From: a virus
Virus record (IMG/VR): IMGVR_UViG_3300028361_000023
Coordinates: 1 to 64,000 of that record
Strand: one strand, 5' to 3'
DNA: 64,000 bases
Part shown: positions 1 to 48,811 of the stretch, piece after piece
Numbering within the stretch: position 1 is the first letter of the stretch
Layout of the letters: every line of letters begins with the position of its first letter
Translations under genes and position numbers: made by a program
The notes under the pieces: generated by a model
What the model was told of the DNA's origin: nothing
The model's database searches: none
The model's input: only the letters and a program-made list of their open reading frames with translations

Positions 1-175
1 AAAAGAAATGGTTCTTAGTCTTTCTGTAGGTACAGAAGAAACAAAACAAGAATATGTAAAAGAACTTAACGAGGATTTAAAGTTAATAAGTACTGCACCT
101 ACAGAAGAATTAAAAAACTACTACATTCAACAATATAATCTTAAAGTAGAAGGATTACAAAAATTAAATAAATAA
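1..175 (+). CDS. C-terminal end of an unrecognised protein (5' truncated by window edge)
   Basis: An open frame runs from the window edge and ends with TAA at 173-175. About 57 codons are visible, starting KEMVLSLSVGTEE and ending GLQKLNK. The visible part is Lys/Glu-rich and probably helical. Its stop overlaps the next ATG as TAATG, the same arrangement as between the next two giant genes, so it is probably the upstream member of the same virion-protein operon. No function can be assigned. Confidence 0.6.
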   Translation, partial: KEMVLSLSVGTEETKQEYVKELNEDLKLISTAPTEELKNYYIQQYNLKVEGLQKLNK

Positions 176-5685: not shown

Positions 5686-8600
5686 TGAGTAAATGTCCAA
5701 ATAAAAATCATCCTGCATTTATTGATGCAGCTAATGTATTAGGTGAAAATGTAACTTATTCTTTGTATGAAGCTTCTAATGACACATTAGTAGATGAACA
5801 TCCTTTGTATGAAGAGTTTGTAAATGCTTATGGGATAGAAAATGGTATTAAGAAAATTGCTGATAGAGTACTTAATCAAGGCAAAGTAAATTATACTTTA
5901 AAATCTATAAATTTATTATCTTCTGATAAAGCTATACAAGTATTTGAAAAAGGGGAAAAAAATAATTGGAGTTTAGATAAAATTCTTACAGAACTTCAAA
6001 TACCTAAAGAGCAAAAGCAAATTATTCTTGATAAATATAAAAATAATAATATATTAAATCAATTAATTTTTCAAGATGGAACTTTAAATTCAAATAAGTT
6101 ATTAGAAAAATTTGTAGATGATTCTTTTGCAGGTAAATTAATAGATTTGTTAAATAAAAAAGGATTATTTAAAAATATTTCTGAAATTAAATTAAAAGAA
6201 AATAATAGTAGTGCATTAGGTTATTATACACCAGAAGGTTATTTAGAAGTTGATGCCCCTGTATCTCATCAACAAAGAACAGTTTTACACGAAGCTTTAC
6301 ATTCTGTAACAAATATTAAAATTGAAGAATACTTTAAATTATTTCCTAATAAAAATATAGGAAACAATATTTATACAGAAGTACCTAGTTATGGAAATAT
6401 CAACTTAACTAAACAAGATATAAATAATTTAGATTCTTTAGTATCTATATTTCAAAAAGTTTTAGATTCTAATTTAAAATTTAATGAAGATCCAAATATA
6501 GCTATAAGTAATAACAATTACGGTTTAGACAACTTACATGAATTTTTATCAGAAGCGTTAAGTAATCCGTATTTTGTAGAACAATTAAAAACACTACCTT
6601 CTATTAATAATAAAAGGTCTAATTTATTTAAAGATTTTATAGAAAATATTTTATCTTTTTTAAATATAAATAAAAATATATCTATTTATGATGATATTGT
6701 GAATAATTTTGAAGATTTATTTTTAACTAAAAAAACAACCAAAAATAATTCTAAAACTAACCTAAGAGAAGATATTATTACATCTTTATTAGCTGAGAAT
6801 GCTGTAGTTACAGATGTTACTAACATTCAATATTCTGAAAATAAAACTTCTTATATTAATTCTAAATTAGAAAATACTGGCAGTAACCTAAGAGAAAAAG
6901 ATGTAGAAACACCAAAACAAAAATCTTTAACACCAGAGCAAAATAAATCTATAGAAAATTTAAAATCTATAGAACCTGCTTATGCTGATTATAGTAATGA
7001 ACAGATACAATCTTTTATAGAAAGTAAGATACCTGATAGTCAAGCTAAGCAAGTTTTGTTTCATGGAGGTACTTTAATAAAAGACGAAAAATTTAAAGAT
7101 AATTATACAGGGTCAAAAGGAATATACTTTACAGGAAGTAAAAAAAGAGCAGAAAGTTATATTAAAGCAAAAGGTAGTACGGAATATAGTAACAATAGTA
7201 AAATATATGCTACTTTACTAGATATTAAATCTCCTTTAAATAAAAAAGTATGGAGTAAATGGAAATTTAATGCAGACACTATTAACGACAAAGAATTTAA
7301 ACAAATACAAGATAATAATGCAGATAGTATTATAGATAAAGATTTTTTTAGTAAAATAGGTTTAACTAATTACAATACGCAATATATAGTATTTGAACCT
7401 TCTCAAATAACAATATTAAACTCTCCAGAAACAATACAAGAGTTTAAGGAGTTTATTAATGCTAAAAGTGAAAAAAATCAAAATAAAAAAATATTACTTG
7501 ATAATTTTGATGAAAATAATAAAACTAATCAAGACAAAGTAAATTACACTTTAAAATCTATAAATTTATTATCTTCTGATAAAGCTATAGAAATATTTGA
7601 AAAAGGAGAAAAAAACAATTGGAGTTTAGATAAAATTCTTACAGAACTTCAAATACCTAAAGAGCAAAAGCAAATTATATTAGATAAATATAAAGATAAA
7701 ATAGCAGGTAAAAAATTATCTATAGTAGCAGAAAGAAGAAAATTAGCAACTGATAAAGATTTAGAAAATTCCCAACTTATTAAAGATATAAGAGTAGATA
7801 AATCTCAACCTAAAGAATTAAAACCTAATGGATATGATAATAATTTAGCAGCAATTATGCTCTATGGTATGAAAATGTCTGAATTAGAAGATAAAGGATT
7901 ACCTGAAGAAATGCAAGAAGCTAATGTGTTAGCTTATAGAATATTAAATAATTTCATGTTTAATATTAATGAAATAACGGAATTTATGGACGTTATGACA
8001 CCTCAATATGCAAATGTTTTAACTACTAATGAAAATCCAGTTAAAGAATTTTTTGAAAATGATGTGTTTGAAGAAAGTGATAAAATTAATCTTAACCTAA
8101 GAGAAGATATTATTACATCTTTATTAGCTGATAATAGTTTTGTGGTTGAAGTTAATGTTGCTAAAGAAAATGATAAATTAGGAAAACAACCTCATCCTAT
8201 GGAGGGTGAACGATCTTTTACAGTAAATGGAGATATATACACTTTAAATAGTGATGTAGAACCAGATGGCGAAGGAGGTATAAGTAATTTTACTACTGCT
8301 TATAAAAATGATAAAGAAATAACAATTGAAGAATATTTAAAAGGTAAAAAATTAGCAAGTGATAAAGGAATTAACACATCTTATTACTCTAATCTAACAG
8401 TTCCAGGTGGTACTAATTATACAGAAAACGAAATATCTACACCTGATATTATACCTAATATTAAAGGTCATGCACAGTTTAGTACTAATAATGGTATAGG
8501 ATGGTTTAGAAGTGATGATAAATCTAGTATAATTACAAAAGAAATAGAAACTACTGAAAAATATGACCCTGAATATGATGAACAAGGTTTTTACTCTAAA

Positions 8601-11600
8601 ACCCAAAAAGAAGAAATCACTAGCTTTTTTGTTGAATATAAAGAAGCTAAAGAAAAAGGTGTTTATATTAAAAGTGAGAACGGTTATAAATTAGGAGATT
8701 TTTTATATAAAGAATTTGACTTAGCTTTTGAAGGTATAAAATATGTAAAATATTTATACAAAGGAGAGTTAAAAGATACTAAAATCCGTAGAATACTAGA
8801 AGTACAATCTGATTTATTTCAGAAAGGCAGAGATAAAAAAGATTTAATAAGTAACATAGAAGATGAAACTTTTAGAAAATTAGCTGATAATCAATTTTTA
8901 CAATTATTAAACAAAAAAGGTAATTGGGTTAATTTCTTTATACAATCTATAGTACAAGATAGTGTTAAAAAGGGTTATAAAAAAGTATTATTTCCTACAG
9001 GAGAAACTGCTGCTAAAGTAGAAGGTCATGAAACTATTGCTGAAGAATTACTTAAGCTAGAAAATGAAATTATAAATAAAAAGCAAAGGTTAAAAGAAAT
9101 AGGAAATAAAACCACAGAATACATAATAGCAGACCCTTTTGAAGGAGAGGAAGTTTATAATAACAAAGAAGAAGCTGAAAAAGTAGCTAAACGTAAGGGT
9201 TTAAAAGTTCATATAGGTAGTGTAATTGATAATAACTTAGAAGAGGAATTAGAAATACTAGAAAAAAATAAAAACAATCTTAAAACTCAAGGTATAGAAA
9301 AACTTAAACCTGTTGAAGCTTTTTATACTAATAGAGTTACTAACATTCTTAATAAATTATATGATGTAACTCAAATTACTGATGAACATAGTAATACTTG
9401 GAATGAAGTAGATATTACTAAAAAAGAAAATCAAAGTAATGATATTTTTCTTGATAATTTTGATGATTCTCCTATTAAACCTGAAATCAAATTACATAAT
9501 ATGGAAGGTTATCTTGCTAATAATATATCTTTTAATTCTGATAGTATTAATTTAAACGCAATTGAAAGTTTAGAGGTTAAAAACGTAACAGCTTTTATTG
9601 TAGCTCAAGTTAATACTTATTTAGAAAAAAATAAACTAAAAATTTCAGATGAAAAACTCAAAGAACAAGTAATAAAAATTATAAAGAGCAAACTTAATGT
9701 AGATAATTTTACAGCCGAACAAAGAAACTTCGTAGAAAACAAATGGATAGCTGGACTTGAAAGAGATAATTCTTATTTATGGGGACAAATTAAAAATATA
9801 AGTAATAGTAAATACGGTAAAGTTCTTACCGAATTTAACGAAGAATTTGCTTTAGACGTTAATACTAAAGATTTTGATGATAGTAAAAGATTTAAAGAAA
9901 GTACTTTAAAAGGAGAACAAGATTTAAAAAACAAAATAAATCAAATAATTAAAACACCAAAAGAACAAAGTTACTCTGGTTTTGATGTTTATTTTGATTT
10001 TCGTCAAATTGCTGGAAAATTACATAGACATTTACAAAATACTAATAATAAAAATTTTATAAATAACTTTAGTGATCTTATTTTAATAGATAAAAGTTAT
10101 GAAAAAATATTAAATAAAGTTAATGAAGATGAAAATTTTAAAATAAAGTTAGCTAATTTTACAAATGTAGAATATATACAACCTAATCTTGATATAATTA
10201 CTGTAAATTCAAAAGGAATTACAAGTTACAAAACAGAAGATGAAACAAAAGGACAACAACCTGGAATTAAACTTGCTAATAGTTGGATAAATGAATATAA
10301 AAAAATAGTAACTATCCGTGATTTACAAAAAGAAAATTTTTTAGACGAAATAACTGACATAGAAAAAGAATTTAAACAACATTTAATAGCAGAAGATTAT
10401 AATAATGCTGCTAAAACTTTAGTAGAACTTTTTGCAAATATTAATATAAATATAACTAAAAATGATTTATCTAAATTTATAAAAATAAATCCTGAATTAA
10501 TAATATCTGAATATTTATCACAACAATTTGATACTTATAAAGCATTTAAAGACTACGCTATTTCTTATGAAGGTGGCGATACAAAAACTACTTATCCAAA
10601 TATAAATAAATTATTTAGTCCTTTAAATAATTTTGCTGTTGATATGAGTATTGTAAGTTCTGAAGAAAAAGAATTAAGATACGCAGATGTTAATCAAAAT
10701 ATGTCTAGTGCTGTTGTTTCTAACTACCATTTAAGAAGATTTTTTAATACACTTAAAGGAGATAATGGTAAAGCTTTTCTTGTTGAATCGTTACTTGAAA
10801 AAGGTATACAACATTCTAATTGGTTAATTAGTGGTAAAATAATTATACCTCAATCAGACAAAACAGAAATCATATTTGATAGTAATGGTATACCTGTAAT
10901 TTTTGATATAAATAAAGAAGTTGTAAATATTATGATAGACCAACCACTTGCAGGTTCTGTTAATAAATTTACTAGACAAGGTAAAACGTATGAAGATTTC
11001 GTAGAAAAAGATTCTATGATATTGCAATTTGTAAAATACGTAACGAATAAAGAAAAACTAACTACTAAAACTACTGGTATGAGTATTATAAATATGAATA
11101 CTCCGTCAGAAGGTAAAGGTTTTGATTTAACTGTTCCTATAACAACTGTTATACCAAATATGGTAAACGAATTAGAACGAATTGAAAAAATAAACCAACC
11201 TAAAGTAGTTAAAAAAATAGACCAAAGAGGTCTGCCTATAGAAAGAATATTTTCTATAGATGAACAAAAAGAAGCTGCCTTAAAGTACTTATTTATAGAG
11301 ACTGAAACAATAGATAATAAAGTTGTAGAAAAAAGAAATAGTCCTATACTACAAGCTTTTATGAATATAGCTTTACAAGAAATAGAAAGAATACAAGAAG
11401 CTAATGAAGATTTTGGAGATATACTTGATGGAAAAACTACAGATAGAACTCTTGATATTCCTAAAATGCAAATGTTTTATGATTATAAAACAAAAACCAC
11501 AGTTAAAAAAGACGGAACTAAAATAACTACTTTAATAAAAGGTAATAAATTTAAATTTAATACTTTATCTTATCTAAATGATTTTTTAATTAAAGAAGAC

Positions 11601-14600
11601 GTAGATATAAATAAACTAACTAAACAAGACATTATAATAAATGGTGTTTACACTAAGTTAGGTAAAATGTTAAGATACGAAATAATTAAAAATATAGCTA
11701 ACAAAAGTTTAAACGCTAGTAAACAATATACAAAACTATATCCTGAATTAAAAAGTTTAAACAAGAATATTGATATTTTTAAAAACGATGCTGCTGAATT
11801 TGTTTTAAATTACGAAATTACTCAAAATGAATTAAGTAATTTTGTTACAGGTAAATTAGGAGAATTTAAGTCTGGTGTAGATTTTATTAAAAGAAACAAA
11901 AAAACAACTACATTAGGTAAACCTCAAAACGTAGAAAACGAAAACGAACATTATGTTAGTTTGAATTTAAAAGACATAATAGTTGTTAGTCCTAATTTTA
12001 ATATTCCTATAGAAATTACAGATGCACAATCGGTAATAACACTTGGATTATTTGAAGAAAAATCTAAAAGAAGAGGTGCTCTTACTCCTAAAAGAAAAGA
12101 AGCTATAGAAAATATAAAAAATGGAATTAAAACAACTGAACAACTAAACCAATTAAAAAACTTTCATACTTCTTATAGATTTGATAAAAAAATAAATGGT
12201 AAAGGTTTAAATAGAAGAGTATCTAAACAAGTTAAAAATAGTGAATTAGTTGTTCATTCTTCTATGTTTCCTGGAACTCAATTTGGAGAGTTTATGAAAT
12301 ATATAGAAGAATTAGAAGAAAAAATAGGTAAAAAAATTCAAATAAATGTAAGTTCTGGTCAAAAGCATGGTACTTTTAAAGAAGTAGATATAGTAGACAA
12401 AGATGGAAATTTAGACCTTAATGATATTACTAAAGAATTATTAGAAACTAGTTTAGATAACAAATATTATAGTGATGAAACAGAACAACTTAGTTACGAA
12501 GCTGAAGAAAAAAACCACGATAATAATATAGGTTCTCAATTACATAAAGTATTATTAACTAATCTTAGTAATGATGCTGTATATGAAATAGGAAATAAAA
12601 AACTTACTGGTCCAGAAGTTCAAAAATTAATAGGAGAATTACGTTCTATTGATGTTGAAAACGCAGCAAAAGAAGTTGTTAAAGATTTAGAAGACGAAAA
12701 TGGAAATGTAACAGAATTAAGTTTAGCTAGTTTTTTAAGAAATCACGGACTTAAACAAGATTGGGCTAATAATATATTAGATATGTTACAAGAAGACAAA
12801 GAAAGAGGACAAACATTGTTACCTTTTTATTTTAGTAGTGTTAATACTAAGATACAACAAGCTCTTACTTCTTTGTTTACTAATAACGTACTTAAAGAAA
12901 AATTTAATGGAAGTCACAAGTTTCAATTTGCTAATTTTTTAACAGATAAAAAACCTATAACAGAAAGTGAAATTAAAGAAGAAGATTCTTTTAATAGTAT
13001 AACATGGATAAATGGAAAAGTAGAAGAACTAACTTCTACTATTTTAGATGGTGAAAGTAGATTACATGCAAAAGTACTTCTACCTTTTACTATGAAAGAA
13101 TTTATGACTAGTGATGTTAAAAATCTTGACAAAAAAGCTTTACAAATGTTAGGTTATAGAATACCAACAGAAGGTAAATACTCTGTTTATAGTTTTGAAG
13201 TGGTAGGATTTTTACCTGAAGCTTTAGGTAGTGCTGTAGTTTTACCTAACGATTGGATTGCTTTATCTGGCTCTGATTTTGATATAGATAGTTTATATAT
13301 TGTTTCTTATTATCTTGATAATGAAGGTAAAGTTATAGAATATTTAGATGACACTAATAGTACTGTAGAAGAAAGATTTTATAAAGTAAATAAACCTAAA
13401 CAATTTGAAAAATCTAAAAAGTTAGTTGAGTTATTAGAAAATAAAAACAAAACAACAGAAGAATTACTTACACAAATAAGAGAAGAATTAGAAGTTAATT
13501 TTAATTTTAAAGACTTAAATAATAAAGAAATCATAAAGCTATTAAAAATAGAGAGCACTAAAAGAGTAACTACTATTGCGGAAGCAAAACAAGAATTACA
13601 AAAAGCAGAAGATAATAACAATAATTTAGAAGCTGTTTCTATATCTAAAACTATTAAAAACCAAACAGAAACTCTTAATTATCTTAATGATTTAAAAAAC
13701 TTTTTCTTTGAAAATAGTAAAGATATATCTCAAGAGACTAATAATCTTTTTGAAAAAGAAATAAAAATCTCTAATGCTCAAAAATTTGAAGAATTTAAAA
13801 AACTTCCTATATCTAAGCAAAATACTAAATTTGCTAGAAAAAATCTAGTATTAGAAAGTTATCAAGAAATTATTTTAAACCCTAATTCACATGCAGAAAT
13901 CAAAGAAAGATCTAGTTTTGATTCTATAAAACAAAGTACTACTCGACTTGAAAATCTTTTAAAAAGTAAAAATAAAGAAGAACTTCATCCTTATGATTTT
14001 TTTGATCAATTAAAAACTACTAGTTTAGTTCTTGCAGGTAAAAAACTTAAAGGGATGGCTGTTCAATTAAAATCTACTACTGATATAGCAAATGCAGTAG
14101 GAGGCATAACGTTAAGTAAACCTTTACAAATAAAACTTAGTAAAAATCGAATAAAAGAAGTAGGCATTAAAAACATTAAAAAAGTATTCGGCAATTCTTT
14201 TAACGAAACTACAAGAATACTTACTTTAAGTACTATAGGTAAAACAACAACTGGAAGTAATGTAAATATTGATAATATTTTTATAACAGGATTAACTTCT
14301 CAAACTACAGCATACACTCTTGATATTGTTAAAGAAGGAGGCATTCCTGGAGTTACTACAGATACTCTTACTACTTTTGTTTTACCTGCTATGTTAGGTT
14401 TAGAAAATTATGATTTTTCTATAATGTTACTTAATCAACCAATAATTAAGTATTATTTAACACTAGAAGATAATGAAAAAGGTCATTTTAATACAGGAAA
14501 CTACGCTAGTAATAGTCTTTATAGAGATTATAATAATCTTATTAATAGGGCTAAAAACCCAGAAAGTAAATTTGATAAATATATTAAAAAAGAAGACAGA

Positions 14601-17600
14601 ATTAAATTATTAGAATTAAATACTGTTCCTGATATAGAAGAACTAGAGAAAAACATAACTATTCAAAAACAAGGAGCTAAAAAAACTTTATCTAATGCTA
14701 AATATATAGAATACTTAGAAAACCAAATAGCTTTATTTAATTATTTTTTATCTGTTCAAGATATTAGTAAAGACATAGCAAATTTAAACGAAGTATTAAG
14801 TTATGATAAAATAGGAGGTGGTCCAACTTTAAATACTACTGTAAATCAAACTTATAAAGTTGTAGATATTGAAGGTAAATTTAGTATTAATGGTATTGAT
14901 TTAGTAGAAGCTATATTTGGTGAAAATTCTGTTTATCCTATGTTAAAAACATTTAAAGAACAAGTAAATGATACTAGTTATAATTTGTTTAAAGATTTCT
15001 TTATAACAGAAGGTGACACTGTAGTTTCAGAAATTGTTTCTACTGTAAATGGTAAAGATAATCAAGAAGCATTAAAAAAATACATAGTAAATGTTTTTCT
15101 TATAGGCAGACCTTCTAGTCCTACTTATTTTGGCGAACTAGAAAACGATATGATAAGTAAAAGAAGAATACTTAATCCAAAAAACAAAGAAAATATCTCT
15201 GCTTTTGATTATCAATACGTAAATATAACTGATTTAAGTCAAAAGAATTTTGAAGTATTTCAAAGTCTTACAACTTCTAATAAATTAGATTTAATTAAAA
15301 ATCAAATAAGTAAATTAATTTCAGAAACACAATTATTTGATGGTATTAATTTTAATCCTGAAATTAGACTAAAGTATGATAAGTTAAATTTAGATTTAGA
15401 TAGTGATGTTGATATACTTATAGAAGAATATAAGAAAGCATTAAATTCTAGTAATCCTTTTGTTAAAAATTTAGCTTACGAATTAATAGGTTATGAATAC
15501 CTTACAACTGGTTTAGAGTTCGGTAAAGGATTAGCTAAAATAATACCTGCTGAAGTTTTTAGACAAAAACAAAGTGTAGTTGGTAATTTAGACATAAATG
15601 GAACCCTTAGAGACATACATAACAAGCTTAAAAATAAAACATACCCTGATCTTTTTGACGTATTAGATGGTTTTTTAAGAAGCAATTATAGTAATGATAC
15701 TCTTGTTCCTACTTTAAGCCGTGAAATTAAAGATAATATAAAAAAAGGAGTAGAAAAAGATACTATTTTTAATCTTGATGATTTACCTATAAAAATACAA
15801 AAAAATACAATATTTAAATATGTAAATAAAGACCAAGAAACTACTGAACTATATAAAAAATTTACAAATGAAAATGATGTATTTTTTAGAGAAGTAAATA
15901 AATTAGAAAAATTTGAAAAAGGGGATGAAAGTTATTATAAACCTAATAATACAGTTAATACTGCTGATACTTTTATGGATAACTTTCAAGAATCTTTATT
16001 ACATAACAACAATGAAGCAGTAAGAGAAGCTTTAGTTAAGCAATTTGAAGCTGCTAATTATTCTAAAATAACAGGAGAGTTAGAACATTTTACTAAAGAA
16101 TTTTTTCATAGGTCTATAAAACAAGATTTTACTAAACTAACTGAAAGAGAATTATACTTATCTATTTATGGTAATATAAAGAAAAAACCTTTATTACAAG
16201 ATATAGTAATGGTTGAAAATATTCAAATTAATAAATTACCACTAAGTGATCTTGCAAAACTAGCTAAAAGATTTGAGGATAAGTTAGATTTAAGTGATAT
16301 TGATTTAGTTTCTTTACCTGTTTATAAAAAAATAGAAGAACTAGATACCGAAGGTTTATATAGAGGATTACTTCAAATATATTTATACAATCAAGAAAAA
16401 TCTATATTTCTTAAAGACAAACTTGATAAATTAAATATAGATGAAAATACTCTTAATAATCCAAGTAGTAAAAAAGAAGCTACAAAAATATTAGACGAAT
16501 TAAAAAGATTTGTAGAAAGTTATAAAGATTTTGAAAATCTTAAATTTTATAAACAAGAAGAAGATACAAATAAACTAAATATACTTCAACAAAAAATAAA
16601 TACAGTTATAGGTAAAATTCAAGATCAAAAAAATCAAATAGAAAATCTTGATGCTAATAGAGATATTAAATTTACCCAACTGCTTGTAGAACTTTACAAG
16701 AAAAACTCAACACAAGACATAGGTAAAAACGATGAAGAAGTCAAAAATTTTGTAATAAATTCATTAAAGCAACTACACGATATAAGTTTTTTTGCTGAAA
16801 AAGGAGATACTATATTCGATTCTGGTCAAGCTTTTATTAGTATATTAGGAAAAGAAATAAGAACTAATATGGCAGAAGGAAATATAACACAACTTGACTT
16901 ATTAAAAGAATGGAATACGATATATAAAAAAATAGGAAAAATAGAAAATATACTTGAAACAAAAGAAGTTACAGACGTAAAAGGAACTAGAACTATTAAT
17001 ACTGGTAAATGGGACATAACTAAAACAGATGCTATAGGAAAAGAAGTTACAGCTTTTTTTGTTAAACTACAAAAATTAGCTATAGAAGTGTCTCCTGATG
17101 GAAGTATTGCACAGGGTTATTTACCTTCTATACCTAATTTAAAAGGAGACAGTTTAGATACTTTTATAAAAAATAGTTTATCTTATTATGATGATATTTC
17201 TTTAAATAATAAAAATAATGTAAAAGACAGTTTAGGTACTAAATTTAGTAATATAACATTACCTTTTGATACTCTAATTGTTAAAAAGAAAAGTATAACT
17301 TATAGGAAACAAGAAAAAGACGAAAGTATAGGAGAATATAATTCTAGTGTAATACATGATGTATTTATAACTACTGGTAAAACTTTTAACAGTGTTAAAG
17401 ACATTAGAACATATAATAAACTTGTTGCTGATAGAAATAAAAAACTTAAAAGCGATCTTCATGGTGAAAATATAGACTATAATATGGCAGAAATTATTCC
17501 TATATTTATAGAAAAAATTACACAAACTAAAAGTAAAGCAGATAATGTAGACTTAGCTAGACTTCTTGTAAATGAAGTTAAAAGCAGAAAAAATATCAAA

Positions 17601-19247
17601 AAATCTAGACATGAAAGTTACTTAAACTTAGCTGCTAAAAGGTTTTCTACAAAAGCAGAAGATACTGTAGATGGTAAAAATGCTAAAATAGTTGAACAAC
17701 TCGATTGGATGCTTGATAATACTTTTTATGACGATAAAAATAGAAGTGGAAACGATGCTACTAAATATGGAAGAGTTTTAAGAAACTACACATCTTTATT
17801 AGGTATGGGTTTTAATGTTTTTAGTGGTCTTAATAACATTATTTATGGGCGTATGCAAACTGCTTTTAAAGCATTAGGTAAAGACGATTATTCTCATAAA
17901 CATTGGAGAAAAGCAGGCAAATTATATTATAGAGATGGTGCTTTAGGTAGTTATATAGCAGATGCAGGAAGAAAAGATCAAAAAGTTACAAGTAAACAAA
18001 GCGGTATATTTAATTTATTTAATATATTAAATAATCAAACTGAAGTTCCTGAACATGGTAAAATAGATCTTACAGCAGAAGAAGATAAGAATAGTATGAA
18101 AGCAATAGTTAAAAATAATTTTTCTGTACAAATATTAAACAATATAGGAGAACATGCTTTACAAAATAAACTATTAATTGCAATGTTATTAAGTCATAAA
18201 ATTGTAGATAATAGAGCAGTTAGTTTTAAACAGTTTATTAATAACAAACTTACTAAAGTTGAAGGTACTATAGAAGAAAAAAAGAAAATTATAGAGAACA
18301 ACAAATCCGTAGAAAAAAAGGCGTTAGAAGAATTTGAAAAACTAGATAGTGTTTATAGTTTGTTTGAGTTTAATAAAGAAGAAGGTTATATTAATTGGGA
18401 TAAAAGTAAACTTACTAAAAAAGCTTTTGGAGAATTAAGAGAAAAAATACTAAGAAAAAATCACGATCTTCATGGTATTTATAATCAAGAAGATTTATCT
18501 GTTATTCATGCTTATGAAATAGGTAGACTCGTTATGATGTTTCGTAAATGGATGAGACCTGGTTGGAATAAGCGTTTTGGTAGTCATTTTTTAAAAGAAG
18601 GTGGTTATAGAGAATTAGCACAAACTGAAGATAAGGGAACTTATACTAGTTTATATGAATTTGGTACGTCTGCCTATAGAGAAAATAATTTCTCTCAAAA
18701 CCGTGAAGAGTTTAATACTTTAGCAGCAGTAAGTGCTCTAGTAAGAGATCATATTCTTTTTGTTAAAAATGCAGGTTTTCATTATAATAGTCTTTCTTAT
18801 AACGATAGAGCTAGAGTTAAAGAATCTACAATAGAACTTGTTACGTGGTTTACAAGTATAGGATTATTTGCAGCACTTAAAGGGTGGGGAGAAGACGACG
18901 AAGAATTAAAAGAAGCTTATTTATATAATATGGGTGTTTATCAATTAGATAGATTATCTGTTGAACTCGGTACTTATACTCCTATATATGGTTGGTTTAA
19001 TGAAGGTCTTAAACTTTCTGCTTCTCCTTCTGCTAATTCAAATACAGTTTTAAAATTAATAAAACTTATACAAGCTGGTGCAAATTTAAGTGATTTTGAG
19101 ATTGATCCTACTGATGTATATAGAGGAGGTAAGTATAAAGAAGAACTTAAAGTTAAAATAAAAGCTATGCAATTAGTTCCTTTTGCTACTCAATATATGA
19201 GAATAAAATACCTTAAAGAAAATAACAAAGCTTTTGCGTTAATGTAA
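5685..19247 (+). CDS. Giant virion RNA polymerase polypeptide with N-terminal zincin and ADP-ribosyltransferase-like domains
   Basis: A 4,520-residue polypeptide. The catalytic signature DFDID is at residues 2531-2535 in the context GSDFDIDSLYIV, preceded by a GYRIPTEG..S stretch, as in the single-chain double-psi-barrel RNA polymerases of crAss-like phages, in which the Asp triad binds the catalytic metal. Before it lies a mosaic. A zincin HEALH is at 202-206 with HEFLSEALSNP from 285. An ADP-ribosyltransferase-like (ART-PolyVal type) domain spans about 455-580 (FHGG at 459, GIYFT at 479, VFEPSQI near 570). A polyvalent-type domain spans about 1039-1244 (LEVQSD, FPTGETAA at 1103, WNEVDI). 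A 53-residue block is duplicated (67-119, 618-670). Hydrophobic segments lie near 4033 and 4385. Three D-N-F peptides are present. It is presumably packaged and injected to transcribe early genes. It starts on the TAATG overlap. Confidence 0.88.
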   Translation: MSKCPNKNHPAFIDAANVLGENVTYSLYEASNDTLVDEHPLYEEFVNAYGIENGIKKIADRVLNQGKVNYTLKSINLLSSDKAIQVFEKGEKNNWSLDKILTELQIPKEQKQIILDKYKNNNILNQLIFQDGTLNSNKLLEKFVDDSFAGKLIDLLNKKGLFKNISEIKLKENNSSALGYYTPEGYLEVDAPVSHQQRTVLHEALHSVTNIKIEEYFKLFPNKNIGNNIYTEVPSYGNINLTKQDINNLDSLVSIFQKVLDSNLKFNEDPNIAISNNNYGLDNLHEFLSEALSNPYFVEQLKTLPSINNKRSNLFKDFIENILSFLNINKNISIYDDIVNNFEDLFLTKKTTKNNSKTNLREDIITSLLAENAVVTDVTNIQYSENKTSYINSKLENTGSNLREKDVETPKQKSLTPEQNKSIENLKSIEPAYADYSNEQIQSFIESKIPDSQAKQVLFHGGTLIKDEKFKDNYTGSKGIYFTGSKKRAESYIKAKGSTEYSNNSKIYATLLDIKSPLNKKVWSKWKFNADTINDKEFKQIQDNNADSIIDKDFFSKIGLTNYNTQYIVFEPSQITILNSPETIQEFKEFINAKSEKNQNKKILLDNFDENNKTNQDKVNYTLKSINLLSSDKAIEIFEKGEKNNWSLDKILTELQIPKEQKQIILDKYKDKIAGKKLSIVAERRKLATDKDLENSQLIKDIRVDKSQPKELKPNGYDNNLAAIMLYGMKMSELEDKGLPEEMQEANVLAYRILNNFMFNINEITEFMDVMTPQYANVLTTNENPVKEFFENDVFEESDKINLNLREDIITSLLADNSFVVEVNVAKENDKLGKQPHPMEGERSFTVNGDIYTLNSDVEPDGEGGISNFTTAYKNDKEITIEEYLKGKKLASDKGINTSYYSNLTVPGGTNYTENEISTPDIIPNIKGHAQFSTNNGIGWFRSDDKSSIITKEIETTEKYDPEYDEQGFYSKTQKEEITSFFVEYKEAKEKGVYIKSENGYKLGDFLYKEFDLAFEGIKYVKYLYKGELKDTKIRRILEVQSDLFQKGRDKKDLISNIEDETFRKLADNQFLQLLNKKGNWVNFFIQSIVQDSVKKGYKKVLFPTGETAAKVEGHETIAEELLKLENEIINKKQRLKEIGNKTTEYIIADPFEGEEVYNNKEEAEKVAKRKGLKVHIGSVIDNNLEEELEILEKNKNNLKTQGIEKLKPVEAFYTNRVTNILNKLYDVTQITDEHSNTWNEVDITKKENQSNDIFLDNFDDSPIKPEIKLHNMEGYLANNISFNSDSINLNAIESLEVKNVTAFIVAQVNTYLEKNKLKISDEKLKEQVIKIIKSKLNVDNFTAEQRNFVENKWIAGLERDNSYLWGQIKNISNSKYGKVLTEFNEEFALDVNTKDFDDSKRFKESTLKGEQDLKNKINQIIKTPKEQSYSGFDVYFDFRQIAGKLHRHLQNTNNKNFINNFSDLILIDKSYEKILNKVNEDENFKIKLANFTNVEYIQPNLDIITVNSKGITSYKTEDETKGQQPGIKLANSWINEYKKIVTIRDLQKENFLDEITDIEKEFKQHLIAEDYNNAAKTLVELFANININITKNDLSKFIKINPELIISEYLSQQFDTYKAFKDYAISYEGGDTKTTYPNINKLFSPLNNFAVDMSIVSSEEKELRYADVNQNMSSAVVSNYHLRRFFNTLKGDNGKAFLVESLLEKGIQHSNWLISGKIIIPQSDKTEIIFDSNGIPVIFDINKEVVNIMIDQPLAGSVNKFTRQGKTYEDFVEKDSMILQFVKYVTNKEKLTTKTTGMSIINMNTPSEGKGFDLTVPITTVIPNMVNELERIEKINQPKVVKKIDQRGLPIERIFSIDEQKEAALKYLFIETETIDNKVVEKRNSPILQAFMNIALQEIERIQEANEDFGDILDGKTTDRTLDIPKMQMFYDYKTKTTVKKDGTKITTLIKGNKFKFNTLSYLNDFLIKEDVDINKLTKQDIIINGVYTKLGKMLRYEIIKNIANKSLNASKQYTKLYPELKSLNKNIDIFKNDAAEFVLNYEITQNELSNFVTGKLGEFKSGVDFIKRNKKTTTLGKPQNVENENEHYVSLNLKDIIVVSPNFNIPIEITDAQSVITLGLFEEKSKRRGALTPKRKEAIENIKNGIKTTEQLNQLKNFHTSYRFDKKINGKGLNRRVSKQVKNSELVVHSSMFPGTQFGEFMKYIEELEEKIGKKIQINVSSGQKHGTFKEVDIVDKDGNLDLNDITKELLETSLDNKYYSDETEQLSYEAEEKNHDNNIGSQLHKVLLTNLSNDAVYEIGNKKLTGPEVQKLIGELRSIDVENAAKEVVKDLEDENGNVTELSLASFLRNHGLKQDWANNILDMLQEDKERGQTLLPFYFSSVNTKIQQALTSLFTNNVLKEKFNGSHKFQFANFLTDKKPITESEIKEEDSFNSITWINGKVEELTSTILDGESRLHAKVLLPFTMKEFMTSDVKNLDKKALQMLGYRIPTEGKYSVYSFEVVGFLPEALGSAVVLPNDWIALSGSDFDIDSLYIVSYYLDNEGKVIEYLDDTNSTVEERFYKVNKPKQFEKSKKLVELLENKNKTTEELLTQIREELEVNFNFKDLNNKEIIKLLKIESTKRVTTIAEAKQELQKAEDNNNNLEAVSISKTIKNQTETLNYLNDLKNFFFENSKDISQETNNLFEKEIKISNAQKFEEFKKLPISKQNTKFARKNLVLESYQEIILNPNSHAEIKERSSFDSIKQSTTRLENLLKSKNKEELHPYDFFDQLKTTSLVLAGKKLKGMAVQLKSTTDIANAVGGITLSKPLQIKLSKNRIKEVGIKNIKKVFGNSFNETTRILTLSTIGKTTTGSNVNIDNIFITGLTSQTTAYTLDIVKEGGIPGVTTDTLTTFVLPAMLGLENYDFSIMLLNQPIIKYYLTLEDNEKGHFNTGNYASNSLYRDYNNLINRAKNPESKFDKYIKKEDRIKLLELNTVPDIEELEKNITIQKQGAKKTLSNAKYIEYLENQIALFNYFLSVQDISKDIANLNEVLSYDKIGGGPTLNTTVNQTYKVVDIEGKFSINGIDLVEAIFGENSVYPMLKTFKEQVNDTSYNLFKDFFITEGDTVVSEIVSTVNGKDNQEALKKYIVNVFLIGRPSSPTYFGELENDMISKRRILNPKNKENISAFDYQYVNITDLSQKNFEVFQSLTTSNKLDLIKNQISKLISETQLFDGINFNPEIRLKYDKLNLDLDSDVDILIEEYKKALNSSNPFVKNLAYELIGYEYLTTGLEFGKGLAKIIPAEVFRQKQSVVGNLDINGTLRDIHNKLKNKTYPDLFDVLDGFLRSNYSNDTLVPTLSREIKDNIKKGVEKDTIFNLDDLPIKIQKNTIFKYVNKDQETTELYKKFTNENDVFFREVNKLEKFEKGDESYYKPNNTVNTADTFMDNFQESLLHNNNEAVREALVKQFEAANYSKITGELEHFTKEFFHRSIKQDFTKLTERELYLSIYGNIKKKPLLQDIVMVENIQINKLPLSDLAKLAKRFEDKLDLSDIDLVSLPVYKKIEELDTEGLYRGLLQIYLYNQEKSIFLKDKLDKLNIDENTLNNPSSKKEATKILDELKRFVESYKDFENLKFYKQEEDTNKLNILQQKINTVIGKIQDQKNQIENLDANRDIKFTQLLVELYKKNSTQDIGKNDEEVKNFVINSLKQLHDISFFAEKGDTIFDSGQAFISILGKEIRTNMAEGNITQLDLLKEWNTIYKKIGKIENILETKEVTDVKGTRTINTGKWDITKTDAIGKEVTAFFVKLQKLAIEVSPDGSIAQGYLPSIPNLKGDSLDTFIKNSLSYYDDISLNNKNNVKDSLGTKFSNITLPFDTLIVKKKSITYRKQEKDESIGEYNSSVIHDVFITTGKTFNSVKDIRTYNKLVADRNKKLKSDLHGENIDYNMAEIIPIFIEKITQTKSKADNVDLARLLVNEVKSRKNIKKSRHESYLNLAAKRFSTKAEDTVDGKNAKIVEQLDWMLDNTFYDDKNRSGNDATKYGRVLRNYTSLLGMGFNVFSGLNNIIYGRMQTAFKALGKDDYSHKHWRKAGKLYYRDGALGSYIADAGRKDQKVTSKQSGIFNLFNILNNQTEVPEHGKIDLTAEEDKNSMKAIVKNNFSVQILNNIGEHALQNKLLIAMLLSHKIVDNRAVSFKQFINNKLTKVEGTIEEKKKIIENNKSVEKKALEEFEKLDSVYSLFEFNKEEGYINWDKSKLTKKAFGELREKILRKNHDLHGIYNQEDLSVIHAYEIGRLVMMFRKWMRPGWNKRFGSHFLKEGGYRELAQTEDKGTYTSLYEFGTSAYRENNFSQNREEFNTLAAVSALVRDHILFVKNAGFHYNSLSYNDRARVKESTIELVTWFTSIGLFAALKGWGEDDEELKEAYLYNMGVYQLDRLSVELGTYTPIYGWFNEGLKLSASPSANSNTVLKLIKLIQAGANLSDFEIDPTDVYRGGKYKEELKVKIKAMQLVPFATQYMRIKYLKENNKAFALM
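5883..6041 (+). repeat. Copy 1 of a 159-bp near-identical duplication in the RNA polymerase gene
   Basis: This encodes residues 67-119 (KVNYTLKSINLL... to ...LDKYK). The copy at 7536-7694 is nearly identical in DNA, with only a handful of mismatches by eye, and differs in two residues. The two copies flank the ART-like domain. Confidence 0.9.
7536..7694 (+). repeat. Copy 2 of the 159-bp duplication in the RNA polymerase gene
   Basis: This encodes residues 618-670, pairing with 5883-6041. A second shared block, NLREDIITSLLA, occurs at residues 359 and 804, so a larger module seems to have been copied and then diverged. Confidence 0.9.
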
Positions 19248-24077: not shown

Positions 24078-24525
24078 TTGATCTTTTAGAACTTGGAGCA
24101 GATTTAGCTTTAGGTATTCTAGCTAATACAGCTCTAGCTTCAGCTATTTCCTCATCTGTGGGTGTACCTTTACTTGCTTTAGGTTTTGGTTTGCTAGAAG
24201 TAGGAGTTTTAGTATTACTTTTCTTAGCTGCTTTTGTTTCAGCTTTTTTTGCTGTTTTGTCTTTTTCCATAGAACTAATAATTCTACTTTTTTTAGTAGG
24301 TGTATTAGCTTTATTAAAAGATTCAACAGATTTTAAAATGTTATCTCTTTCTTCTTTATCAGCAATACTTCTAGAATATTTCCTACCATCAATAGACATT
24401 ACAATAGTTCTACCAAATTGTTTAGCAGCTATTTGTTCTTTAGTTGATGTCTTCTGTGATTTTGATACTACTTTTGGTGTTGTTTTTTTCGTAGATTTCT
24501 TTTTGTTTGTTGTTGTCTTTACCAT
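24064..24525 (-). CDS. Lys/Ala/Ser/Thr-rich basic protein (histone H1-like composition)
   Basis: A 153-residue highly basic protein with low-complexity arms (KKKSTKKTTPK at the start, KKAETKAAKKSNTKTP in the second half) around a short ordered segment (FGRTIVMSIDGRKYSRSIADKEERDNILKSV). The composition suggests nucleic-acid binding. Its first 86 nt overlap the 3' end of the RIIA-like gene in another frame. A long open frame on the opposite strand here is only a by-product of this repetitive composition. Confidence 0.75.
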   Translation of the reverse strand: MVKTTTNKKKSTKKTTPKVVSKSQKTSTKEQIAAKQFGRTIVMSIDGRKYSRSIADKEERDNILKSVESFNKANTPTKKSRIISSMEKDKTAKKAETKAAKKSNTKTPTSSKPKPKASKGTPTDEEIAEARAVLARIPKAKSAPSSKRSSGEY

Positions 24526-26779
24526 AATAATTTTCGTTAAATTTTAATACTTTTTTGTTACTGATTATTTCTCTTATATACTTATCTGGACTACCTAATT
24601 TTATATAATTTAATATGTCCAATTTCTCGTGTAATTCTATTAATTTATTTATTTTATCTTCATATTGTAATTGATTAATTGTTAAATTTTTTTTCTTTTG
24701 TAAAGATATGTTATCTATAGTATCTTTAAAATATAGATAATAATCTCCTTCGTGATCTCTAAAACTTTGTTTATTTACTGTTAAGTACTTACCTGTATTA
24801 AATTGTGTATTTATTTTATAGTTTTGAGTTATAAAATTATAAAATTTACTGTAATAAGTACTATAGTTAAATACATAACTTCCCCATAATTTTTGTCTAA
24901 TTAAATAAGAAACTCTTAATCTATTAAAATGATTTTTAAATATACTTATTTTAAACACATCTGAAATATGTTTAAATCCTTCTTTTTTTCTTATCTTTTT
25001 AACAGTTGTTGGATTAACAAATATAAGTTTTATTTTTGGTTTTACTTGTATTTTTTGTTTTACTAATTGACCTTTAAATCTACCTTTTACATTTTTATAT
25101 GTAGTAGTTTTTTTAACATAATAATCAGGAAGATTCTCAAATAAATAATTATAATTAATACAATCTAAAGGATTACTTCTTCTATCAGCATAAAATACAA
25201 ATTTATATTGATCTGCTAAATACCCATAAGAAATAGTGTGTCTTTCACCATCTAAATTATAATATGTTATTAGTTCTTTTCTAGCTTGTGTTAATTCTTT
25301 TTGTTCTTGTCTGATTTGTTCTTTCCATTTTTCTGGAGCTATTCCATCATAAAGAGGGATTTTTTTTATAACATAACTTTCTATAAATTTTATTAAGTTA
25401 TATACTACATGAGCAGTATTTTCTTTATAGGCAGTCTTAAAAATATTTGTAGAACTTGTAGGTTCATGATTATATATAACTCTATTTAGTTTATTAGCGA
25501 TAAACTTGAAATATTTTTGTCGTATTTTTCTTTTACTAATGATAAAACCATTATCAATATATTTACTATCATAACCATTAATACTGTCTTGTAAATAAAA
25601 CAAATTTTCATTTTGATGAATTATAGTATTTTTTTCAAAAAAATTTTCTGTTAATTTACCAAAACTTAATTTTTGAATTTTAAACATAGATAAAAAATTA
25701 GAAATATCTTCTTTTTTTAAATCTAAATCTGGATAATGAGAAAAAGAAACTTTAGTTTTAATATTAGACATATTTATTTCGATGCCTTTTATTTTTAATT
25801 TAGGTTTTTTATCTAAACCTCCTACAACTCTAAGATAACTAAAAAAATCATCCATTTTAAGTTGTTCTTCGTATTTATTAATTAATAAACATTTTACTTT
25901 TTCGATTTTTTCAAGTACTAAAGCAATAACAGGTTCAGTATAATTAATTTCTTCTCTACTTAAAGTTACTTCTAATTCACTAATATCAAATTTAATAGCT
26001 ACAGGTATATCAACTCTAGGTATACCTAAAGTATTCCAATTAATAGGATAAGCAACTTGACCTAAAGCAATATGCATTTCGTCACCAAAAGGACGATCTT
26101 GGTTTCTTAATTTATAAAACTCATTTTCATATATTTTAAAATGATTATCATAACCATATATATTATGTTTTACATAAACATTATTAAAATAAGCTAATTG
26201 CTTAACACAAGCTTGGTAAAATTTCCACACATCGTCATAGTTTTTTATAATTACTTTAACTATAGTTCCGCTATTTTTATCAGTAACGCTGTTTTCTAAT
26301 AATGTTGCTATAGGTAAATTAGTTTCTGTATCCCAACCTACAATATAAGAATTTAATATTCCATTATTAATAGTCGTAATTTCATATGAATCTTGATAAG
26401 CTAAAGGCGTTTTTGAACCTAATCCCCAACCGCCTATATTTTCATCACTGTCTCTTTTATCAGAATTAAACCATTTCATATAAGTGTTCTTAAACTTATT
26501 GGCCGACATACCTAAGCCTTCGTCTTTAACTTCTATATAATAATCGTCTCCTTCTTTATCTACTATAACTAAAACAGGCTTCTCAGAACCAGCTTCAGTA
26601 TTTGCATCTACTCCATTAGAAGCTAATTCTCGAACCATAGAAGAAATAGAATCAGAATATAGATTACGAGATACAGCTCCAAGAGCTATACCTAAATCTT
26701 GTTTCCTAATACTAGAAGCTATTTCTCCTCCAAATTCTCCTACTTTTTTTGTCTCTAAATTGTTTTGTTTTAATTTCAT
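24440..26779 (-). CDS. RIIA-like GHKL-fold ATPase
   Basis: A 779-residue protein whose N-terminal 200 residues show the Bergerat ATP fold. The N box is MVRELASNGVDAN (48-60, Glu51 and Asn55). The G1 box is DEGLGMS (86-92). The G2 box is GGWGLGSK (116-123). T4 RIIA, a membrane-associated protein that protects against superinfecting prophage exclusion, shares this architecture with a long unassigned C-terminus. No obvious RIIB partner is adjacent. The last third is Lys/Tyr/Asn-rich and unrecognised. The cellular role is inferred from the family. Confidence 0.8.
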   Translation of the reverse strand: MKLKQNNLETKKVGEFGGEIASSIRKQDLGIALGAVSRNLYSDSISSMVRELASNGVDANTEAGSEKPVLVIVDKEGDDYYIEVKDEGLGMSANKFKNTYMKWFNSDKRDSDENIGGWGLGSKTPLAYQDSYEITTINNGILNSYIVGWDTETNLPIATLLENSVTDKNSGTIVKVIIKNYDDVWKFYQACVKQLAYFNNVYVKHNIYGYDNHFKIYENEFYKLRNQDRPFGDEMHIALGQVAYPINWNTLGIPRVDIPVAIKFDISELEVTLSREEINYTEPVIALVLEKIEKVKCLLINKYEEQLKMDDFFSYLRVVGGLDKKPKLKIKGIEINMSNIKTKVSFSHYPDLDLKKEDISNFLSMFKIQKLSFGKLTENFFEKNTIIHQNENLFYLQDSINGYDSKYIDNGFIISKRKIRQKYFKFIANKLNRVIYNHEPTSSTNIFKTAYKENTAHVVYNLIKFIESYVIKKIPLYDGIAPEKWKEQIRQEQKELTQARKELITYYNLDGERHTISYGYLADQYKFVFYADRRSNPLDCINYNYLFENLPDYYVKKTTTYKNVKGRFKGQLVKQKIQVKPKIKLIFVNPTTVKKIRKKEGFKHISDVFKISIFKNHFNRLRVSYLIRQKLWGSYVFNYSTYYSKFYNFITQNYKINTQFNTGKYLTVNKQSFRDHEGDYYLYFKDTIDNISLQKKKNLTINQLQYEDKINKLIELHEKLDILNYIKLGSPDKYIREIISNKKVLKFNENYYGKDNNKQKEIYEKNNTKSSIKITEDIN

Positions 26780-26791
26780 AATTGTTTTGTT

Positions 26792-27646
26792 TTAAAATAT
26801 GTACCTAATAATACACCATTTAATATGTTTATTATGTATTTGTTTAAATTGTTGAATATAATTAAATTTAAGATAACTTTTATATCTTAAATTTCTTCCT
26901 CCATATTGTGATTGTTTATATTCTTGTAACGAAGGTTGCCATAATATTTTTTCTGATTTATTATTAGAATCAACATTAGCTATATGTTTTTTATCGTTAT
27001 GAGTCAGAAAAATAACTTCACATTTTACTTTATCTTTGTTTTTTACTAAATTATTAACCAGTATAAAAAGTTCTTCATAATCTTTTAACCATGTTTTATA
27101 AACAATAACAGGACTAAAATTTATATGAACATCATAACCAGCTTTAATAAAAATATCAATAGCTTTTATTCTTTCTATAATTAAAGAAGTATTAGGTTCT
27201 ACTAATTTTCTAAGAACTTCTGGCATTAAACTAAACCTAATTCTAATCTTATTATTAGGATTATAGTTAAGAAATTCTTTTGGAACATATTTAGTAGCAA
27301 AAGTGGCTTTTGCTTTTGGATGATTTTTAAAAAAATTAAATATACTTTTCCAATCATAATATTTATTATGTAGTGCAAAATCTTCATTACAACTTATATC
27401 ATAAGTTACAAAATCAGAATCAGTTTGGTTAGGTTTTTCTACTTCACAAAAAGCTACGTGAGTATTAATTGTACTTAATATTTGTGTAATATTAGTAGCA
27501 ACAGTTAATCCTTCAGGCTTATGTCTTTTCATATAACAATAATGACAATTATATAAACAACCAAAACCAAAAGAAGGACTAATATAATCACTACTCCTAC
27601 CACTAAATCTAATTTTCATAGATTTTCTATTTACTTTTTCTATCAT
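26792..27646 (-). CDS. Radical SAM enzyme of the spore-photoproduct-lyase (SPL) family
   Basis: A 284-residue protein with the 4Fe-4S motif C-x3-C-x2-C as GCLYNCHYC (Cys30, Cys34, Cys37). The RIRFSLMPE...EP.TS.I.ERI.AI...AGYDVHINFSPVI stretch matches the SAM-binding barrel of the SPL subfamily. SPL repairs the spore photoproduct thymine dimer in DNA using S-adenosylmethionine. Here the target could be phage DNA damage or another thymine/RNA modification, and sequence does not decide. It lies 12 nt from the RIIA-like gene in the same operon. Confidence 0.75.
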   Translation of the reverse strand: MIEKVNRKSMKIRFSGRSSDYISPSFGFGCLYNCHYCYMKRHKPEGLTVATNITQILSTINTHVAFCEVEKPNQTDSDFVTYDISCNEDFALHNKYYDWKSIFNFFKNHPKAKATFATKYVPKEFLNYNPNNKIRIRFSLMPEVLRKLVEPNTSLIIERIKAIDIFIKAGYDVHINFSPVIVYKTWLKDYEELFILVNNLVKNKDKVKCEVIFLTHNDKKHIANVDSNNKSEKILWQPSLQEYKQSQYGGRNLRYKSYLKFNYIQQFKQIHNKHIKWCIIRYIF

Positions 27647-47741: not shown

Positions 47742-48380
47742 TTATCCTTTATAGAATAACAATTTAACAAAGTTCATTTGAGAATCTAAACCCGTATTAA
47801 CCGCATGACTAAACAATCTTTGAGTGTTTTGATTTTTATCTCTACTTTCATTAAAAGCATTAGCAGCATTTAATACTTTAGCAAAACTAGTTTTAATAAA
47901 TTCAACTTTTTCATCTCCACTTGGATTAAATGTAAGTCCGACTAATTTACCACCAAAAGTTTCATGAAGATTAGTTTCGTCTTTACTTTCTTGTATTGTT
48001 TCTTTTTCAGTAGTTGTAGAAGTAGTTGTAGAAGTAAGCATTGGAATACAAGCTTCGACTATACTTTTAAATATAAAATCTTTAGCTTTTTCTTTATTTT
48101 CGAGTTTATCATAAGGAATTAAACTAGGATGAGTTTTCTTTATCAAGTCTTTTTCTGTACCATAAACAAAACCATCTTCTATTTTAAATTTCATCCAATT
48201 TTCGTGCATTTCAGCAGCAGTAACATTAGGGTTATCTATTCGGTATTTAACACTATTAACAGCACTATCTTTAATATTTTGAGAAACATTATCCCAATCT
48301 ACTTGGCTATTGTCTCCTAAACTTTCACAATAGCCTTTATTGGCTTGGTGAGCGATTTTTGCTATGTCTATTATATTCAT
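47742..48380 (-). CDS. RyR domain fused to Acb2/Tad1-like hairpin domain (probable anti-defence nucleotide sponge)
   Basis: A 212-residue protein from ATG 48380. Residues 5-110 match the ryanodine-receptor (RyR) domain: IAKIAHQANKGYCESLGDNS, MHENWMKFKIEDGFVYG, KDLIKKTHPSLIPYDKL and KAKDFIFKSIV. A Thr/Ser-rich linker (113-138) follows. Residues 141-208 then match the Acb2/Tad1 hairpin family: GGKLVGLTFNPSGDEKVEFIKTSF and a C-terminal SQMNFVKLL. Acb2 and Tad1 bind cyclic nucleotide or cADPR-type signals and so silence CBASS or Thoeris. The ATG at 48380 is chosen because a TACATTTG promoter element lies 4 nt upstream. The longer frame would begin upstream of that promoter. It is the first gene of the accessory zone. 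Confidence 0.75.
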   Translation of the reverse strand: MNIIDIAKIAHQANKGYCESLGDNSQVDWDNVSQNIKDSAVNSVKYRIDNPNVTAAEMHENWMKFKIEDGFVYGTEKDLIKKTHPSLIPYDKLENKEKAKDFIFKSIVEACIPMLTSTTTSTTTEKETIQESKDETNLHETFGGKLVGLTFNPSGDEKVEFIKTSFAKVLNAANAFNESRDKNQNTQRLFSHAVNTGLDSQMNFVKLLFYKG

Positions 48381-48384
48381 AATA

Positions 48385-48414
48385 CAAATGTAATCTTTTT
48401 TACTAAAATGCAAC
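48385..48414 (-). promoter_or_regulatory. Bacteroidetes-type promoter for the RyR-Acb2/Tad1 gene
   Basis: On the minus strand GTTG, 18 nt, then TACATTTG (48385-48392), fitting the -33 TTTG and -7 TAnnTTTG form. Only 4 nt separate the -7 box from the ATG, so the mRNA would begin at or very near the start codon. Confidence 0.65.
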
Positions 48415-48451
48415 ATTATTATATACTATTTTTAAAAAATTTTAAAGAAAT

Positions 48452-48482
48452 TTTGTAGTTATTAATATATGTATTATTTTTG
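48452..48482 (+). promoter_or_regulatory. Bacteroidetes-type promoter for the morphogenesis operon
   Basis: TTTG (48452-48455), exactly 19 nt, then TATTTTTG (48475-48482): a full match to the Bacteroidetes housekeeping promoter form. The ATG of the IHF-like gene follows 20 nt later. It is divergent from the RyR gene promoter 60 nt away. Confidence 0.75.
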
Positions 48483-48502: not shown

Positions 48503-48811
48503 ATGAGTTTTCCAAAAATAGATATAACATTAGAACGTACTTTAAAAGAGGTTCAAACTAAATTTAAAGATAAATTTGGTACTGATATATCATTACGTCA
48601 AGTTTATTTAATTATAGCTATACAAGAAGAGCTTACAACTAATGCAGTATTTACTGGCAAAGGAATTAGATTACCAAATATAGGTAAGTTCGGAATTACA
48701 GCTAAAAAAAGTAAATATATGACAACAGAAGATATTCAAAAACAAGAACATTTACAAACTAACGGTTGTTTAATTCAAACTTGTTTAGCTGACGATACTA
48801 TTGGTTATTAA
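48503..48811 (+). CDS. IHF/HU-like DNA-bending protein
   Basis: A 102-residue protein. TLKEVQTKFKDKFGTDISLRQVYLIIAIQEEL is the helical dimer part. GKGIRLPNIGKFGITAKK (52-69) replaces the 'V-x-L-x-x-F-G-x-F' strand leading to the DNA-binding arm of HU/IHF. The arm itself is short. crAss-like phages encode IHF-like subunits in this region next to structural genes. It probably shapes DNA for packaging or transcription. First gene after the plus-strand promoter. Confidence 0.65.
   Translation: MSFPKIDITLERTLKEVQTKFKDKFGTDISLRQVYLIIAIQEELTTNAVFTGKGIRLPNIGKFGITAKKSKYMTTEDIQKQEHLQTNGCLIQTCLADDTIGY

Follow-up and report, generated by a model that had tools for sequence, protein, structure and literature searches.

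A crAss-like phage protein combining a RyDEP-type RyR domain with an Acb2/Tad1-type hairpin, a candidate compound counter-defence protein

Introduction

The closest described relatives of the phage protein analyzed here are RyDEP, Acb2 and Tad1, each of which is already known. RyDEP, the RyR protein gp78 of mycobacteriophage DyoEdafos, is a dimeric glycosidase opening 2'cADPR and 3'cADPR (PMC13232231, a preprint of May 2026). Six of the eight phage RyR homologues tested bind 2'/3'cADPR and two do not, most of the tested RyDEP homologues are binders that leave these signals uncut, and binding as well as cleaving members restore phage growth under Thoeris (PMC13232231). Acb2, which corresponds to vs.4 in phage T4 (PMC12657218), is built from a short helix followed by two long antiparallel helices, while the anti-Thoeris protein Tad1 consists of an N-terminal cADPR-binding part and a C-terminal hairpin, the hairpins forming the oligomer core of both proteins (PMC12043709).

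No description of a pairing between RyR and hairpin was found in the literature, a search that covered open-licence papers and is weak evidence of absence, and the main text of the RyDEP preprint (PMC13232231) mentions neither Acb2 nor Tad1 nor a hairpin. The protein presented here, encoded within a stretch of 64,000 nucleotides (positions 1 to 64,000 of IMG/VR record IMGVR_UViG_3300028361_000023, in the following the window), connects these two signal-blocking families, which are handled separately in the papers found.

Results

From the window, a gene encoding a 212-aa RyR-hairpin fusion protein can be deduced (Table 1), an identical copy of which is carried by a second IMG/VR contig. An in-frame ATG is also present upstream at 48416, but the start at 48380 is favoured by homologues. 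The phage is crAss-like, with a terminase 36% identical to crAssphage ctbg_1 and a capsid protein 39% identical to cr271_1. As stated in the initial annotation, the gene opens an accessory block: it is the first of a leftward block outside the structural module and diverges from the capsid block starting at 48503. The promoter of its own that had been ascribed to it comes down to a weak motif, belonging to a Bacteroidota-type class not enriched over chance genome-wide (4 in the window versus 2.5 expected). Among the eight small genes downstream, a PHROGs scan assigned one to a family, of unknown function, and a Pfam scan of three of them gave no match. Elsewhere in the window, a spore photoproduct lyase-like protein (26795-27646, minus strand; PF20903, E=9.5e-23) and a GHKL-type ATPase domain (HATPase_c_3) in a 779-aa protein (24443-26779, minus strand) are encoded, as well as two very long adjoining ORFs on the plus strand (175-5685 and 5685-19247, 1836 and 4520 aa) that likely correspond to the giant crAss-like phage virion proteins.

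Table 1. Coordinates of the RyR-hairpin gene, its domains and residues, and nearby promoter-like motifs in the window.
Feature	Position	Strand	Basis
RyR-hairpin fusion gene, 212 aa	47742..48380	(-)	ORF call; stop codon 47742-47744, coding 47745-48380
RyR / Repeat12 (RyDEP-type) domain, residues 1-115	48036..48380	(-)	PF02026; phage homologues; fold match RyR3 Repeat12
His59, equivalent to RyDEP catalytic H75	48204..48206	(-)	Spacing to W, H and D as in RyDEP; invariant
Trp62, equivalent to RyDEP W78 (adenine stacking)	48195..48197	(-)	Alignment, RyDEP spacing
His84, equivalent to RyDEP H100 (phosphate contact)	48129..48131	(-)	Alignment, RyDEP spacing
Asp101, equivalent to RyDEP catalytic D117	48078..48080	(-)	Alignment, RyDEP spacing
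Thr/Ser-rich linker, residues 116-138, predicted disordered	47967..48035	(-)	pLDDT to about 52; <50 at residues 121-125
Acb2/Tad1-type hairpin domain, residues 139-212	47745..47966	(-)	tblastn, PF24729 relatives, hhalign, pLDDT 95.8
First long helix of hairpin, residues 157-179	47844..47912	(-)	AlphaFold2
Second long helix of hairpin, residues 184-208	47757..47831	(-)	AlphaFold2
TACATTTG, directly before the ATG, resembling the Bacteroidota -7 box (TTG-N18-TACATTTG), weak	48385..48392	(-)	Read from sequence
TTTG-N19-TATTTTTG, weak promoter-like site for the divergent capsid block	48452..48482	(+)	Motif

The RyR-type domain initially placed at residues 5-110 is confirmed by a PF02026 match (E=3.2e-11, 43.8 bits at a cut-off of 27.4), and residues 1-115 show 40-50% identity to the RyR proteins listed among about 290 matching phage records. 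AlphaFold2 models residues 1-110 with a pLDDT of about 95-98, and the resulting fold matches human RyR3 Repeat12 and a RyR protein from Bacteroides thetaiotaomicron; comparison with 6uhi and the RyR3 R12 chains gives Z values of 8.6-9.2 (rmsd 3.4-4.1 Å, 118-119 aligned residues), above those of unrelated helical proteins (Z ≤6.8). The four ligand-contacting or catalytic residues of RyDEP, which has homologues in many tailed phages, are found at identical spacing (3, 25 and 42 residues counted from the first His), and none of them varies in 44 of 44 aligned RyR sequences. The window copy carries two rare substitutions, W71F and C86S. Where a second ligand, a host-protein target or a sensing function had initially been considered for this module, its relatives (PMC13232231) allow a narrower assignment: this probably is the half that binds or cleaves cADPR. 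In contrast to RyDEP, a C-terminal hairpin is fused to it.

Between both domains lies the Thr/Ser linker already recognized in the initial annotation, predicted to be disordered from its pLDDT. For the subsequent C-terminal segment, AlphaFold2 predicts a short helix (residues 142-147) and two long antiparallel ones, hence the paired-helix hairpin that had been proposed, at a mean pLDDT of 95.8 for this domain alone and 92 for the whole protein. The claimed match of this C-terminus to the Acb2/Tad1 family does not hold directly, as residues 139-212, and likewise 141-210, match nothing in Pfam including PF24729 (Acb2_Tad1_hairpin); PHROGs and NCBIfam gave nothing informative. However, tblastn links the segment to stand-alone phage proteins of 65-79 aa (E=2e-6 to 3e-5) from Providencia, Enterobacter and Pasteurella phages and from phage DSL-LC05, and four of the stand-alone relatives match PF24729, three of them above the cut-off. 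Because the segment itself scores nothing while relatives at 35-54% identity, among them many phage proteins of about 78 aa, pass, its homology to PF24729 has to be called indirect. The sequences LVGLTFNPSGDEKV and QMNFVKLL turned out to characterize a large family of stand-alone phage proteins with 515 tblastn-confirmed IMG/VR stretches, the nearest being 52-54% identical to the window hairpin. The hairpin positions FNPSG...K and QM..VK are strongly conserved, 16 out of 25 sampled family members match PF24729, and hhalign connects the family profile to one led by T4 Acb2 (Vs.4) with a probability of 93.5 (E=2e-7). Judged by these relatives, the window hairpin is a divergent member of the Acb2/Tad1 hairpin family.

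Among predicted viral structures, the hairpin is closest to two proteins annotated as Acb2/Tad1 hairpin (TM 0.80 and 0.83). Comparison with solved structures does not discriminate because the shape is generic: unspecific helical pairs score equally at Z 5-7, and the 132 chains shortlisted by Foldseek comprise only unrelated helical matches and no solved Acb2 or Tad1 chain. When the C-terminal family profiles were searched against PDB sequences, all matches were to unrelated or designed proteins, most of them helical. A related canonical hairpin retrieves PDB 9ptq, "Acb2 homolog 43" (E=2e-4), and for another related hairpin Tad1 and Acb2 chains top the PDB list at non-significant E values of 0.2-0.7.

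With Acb2 (T4 Vs.4; PF24729), the window protein has in common a homologous hairpin of one short and two long antiparallel helices with conserved residues preceding helix 1 and in the final part of helix 2, but it represents a divergent clade (FNPSG...QM..VK) with a sub-threshold direct Pfam score and is fused to RyR. It resembles Tad1 (PF24729) in the succession of an N-terminal cADPR-handling part and a C-terminal hairpin. In Tad1, however, an anti-parallel beta sheet makes up the N-terminal part and the pocket spans both parts, whereas in the window protein this place is taken by a RyR domain that has a separate pocket and sits on a flexible linker. The stand-alone hairpin proteins L005:2995-3228, L006:2998-3195 and L008:3001-3225 are encoded beside genes for terminase, portal or internal virion proteins, which is an odd position for an immune sponge.

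Fusion of the two domains recurs in unrelated phages. Including the window protein, six distinct RyR-hairpin fusions were found (the others being SUFG_00048, L120, L133, L206 and L124), with hairpins of visibly different clades. In SUFG_00048 of Sulfitobacter phage phiCB2047-B, a 188-aa "hypothetical protein", both RyR and hairpin exceed the Pfam cut-offs, and the L124 hairpin matches PF24729 with E=1.4e-15. SUFG_00048 shares the RyR plus hairpin architecture with the window protein but has a hairpin of another clade and a shorter linker, and belongs to an unrelated phage (Schitoviridae). In about a dozen further lineages (L016, L060, L061, L086, L097, L112, L116, L123, L153, L156, L230, L234 and L341), RyR and hairpin are encoded by separate neighbouring genes on one strand, ranging from an overlap of about 30 nt to a gap of about 340 nt.

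When scanning by RyR sequence alone, a hairpin was located nearby at 10 of 79 loci, always on the same strand and within 350 nt, most RyR genes thus having no neighbouring hairpin. Among whole records found via RyR alone, the hairpin is fused or adjacent in five of eight lineages, compared to a chance expectation of roughly 1-4% per lineage (P about 1e-7, a crude estimate with lineages picked by eye). As the first RyR scan favoured fusions, loci matched over their whole length were excluded from this estimate. Built from 97 rows and 113 columns, the RyR tree is poorly resolved, the most parsimonious solution requiring five changes for fusion with only two of them forced, and is therefore too weak for counting the number of fusion origins.

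Discussion

Computation establishes the identity of the domains, the conservation of the residues in the RyR pocket, the fold of the hairpin and the recurrence of both parts in fused or paired form. We consider it rather probable that the protein is a compound counter-defence protein made from two signal-handling modules, RyR for cADPR and the hairpin for oligomerisation and probably a second signal. This reading draws on the RyR score above the Pfam cut-off, the Repeat12 fold and the matched RyDEP residues, on the published binding or cleavage and Thoeris rescue by RyR homologues (PMC13232231), on the homology of the hairpin to PF24729 families and T4 Acb2 together with its Acb2-like layout, on guilt by association from the six fusions and the roughly dozen lineages with adjacent genes, and on the precedent of Tad1 with its N-terminal cADPR-binding part and C-terminal hairpin. 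Accordingly, of the two-part nucleotide-signal sponge initially suggested, both domain assignments stand and the sponge is the favoured reading, although the hairpin may only oligomerise.

In the mechanism that we infer, the Repeat12 domain would bind the Thoeris signals 2'cADPR and 3'cADPR via H59, W62, H84 and D101, acting most likely as a sponge, with additional hydrolysis being possible. The hairpin would assemble the protein into an oligomer, like the hairpins of Acb2 and Tad1, and would probably accommodate a different nucleotide signal, for example, a CBASS cyclic oligonucleotide, in a second pocket; no report of ligand binding by the window hairpin clade was found in the open-licence literature. 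Presumably expressed early, one protein could thereby act on more than one signalling defence. Several findings speak against this scheme: the hairpin itself misses Pfam, most RyR genes have no hairpin, the window RyR carries W71F and C86S, and two of the eight RyR homologues in the preprint are non-binding (PMC13232231). Moreover, in several phages stand-alone hairpin and RyR genes lie among structural genes, unlike typical early counter-defence genes.

Alternatively, only RyR may bind a cADPR-type ligand, with the hairpin as a scaffold assembling RyR dimers into multimers of higher avidity. This less probable alternative is in line with hairpins being the oligomer core in Acb2 and Tad1, with RyDEP itself being a dimer and with six fusions involving different hairpin clades, as expected if any oligomerising hairpin suffices. 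A pure scaffold would require fusion, however, whereas adjacent separate genes are commoner, and the strong conservation of FNPSG...K and QM..VK is as in a binding site or interface. We regard it as quite improbable that the pairing has nothing to do with immunity and is metabolic or structural, serving assembly or nucleotide metabolism such as ADP-ribose/NAD handling. RyR homologues have direct biochemistry and phage challenge data (PMC13232231) and the window gene is located outside the structural module, even though several RyR and hairpin genes adjoin terminase, portal, capsid or internal virion genes and the RyR gene of Arthrobacter phage Lewando (gene 74) is two genes away from a PnuC-like nicotinamide riboside transporter (gene 76).

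Hardly credible, finally, is a fusion without functional meaning or a misassigned hairpin. The missing Pfam match of the C-terminus itself, the generic nature of two-helix hairpins and the solely unrelated helical matches among solved structures would fit such an explanation, but tblastn, family alignment and profile-profile comparison as well as the predicted-structure matches argue for the hairpin, and the recurrence in at least six distinct fusions largely refutes it; a purely chance fusion was rejected for this reason.

If the compound counter-defence reading is true, the protein would illustrate how phages overcome Thoeris and CBASS at once, and the known anti-defence repertoire would be widened to crAss-like phages, a group including the main gut phages. 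The large FNPSG-hairpin family would then be a candidate sponge family predicted to act alongside RyR proteins. More tentatively, and somewhat short of probable, phages may repeatedly pair or fuse the unrelated folds of a RyDEP-type RyR and an Acb2-type hairpin, with RyR destroying or holding cADPR and the hairpin holding CBASS or CRISPR cyclic oligonucleotides, in which case a single gene would disarm several defence systems.

RyR domains also occur in other surroundings. In Lewando (L176:2495-3332), the proximity of RyR gene and PnuC-like gene echoes the NAD+ link of RyDEP with NARP1. Nine loci (L010, L344, L347, L348, L349, L358, L361, L362 and L363) from Pseudomonas, Acinetobacter, Zoogloea and related phages or prophages encode RyR with another C-terminal part of about 150 aa ("YIGRRPDWSDHLYGTGLYF...QVRNLP...LRHxDLF") and no hairpin. 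In L012:2183-2848 and L013:2273-2821, RyR is the C-terminal half behind Phage_gp49_66 (PF13876) or a small "YLVVYSKDTPEEYHSWSPKGVF" module; hence, RyR is combined with several partners.
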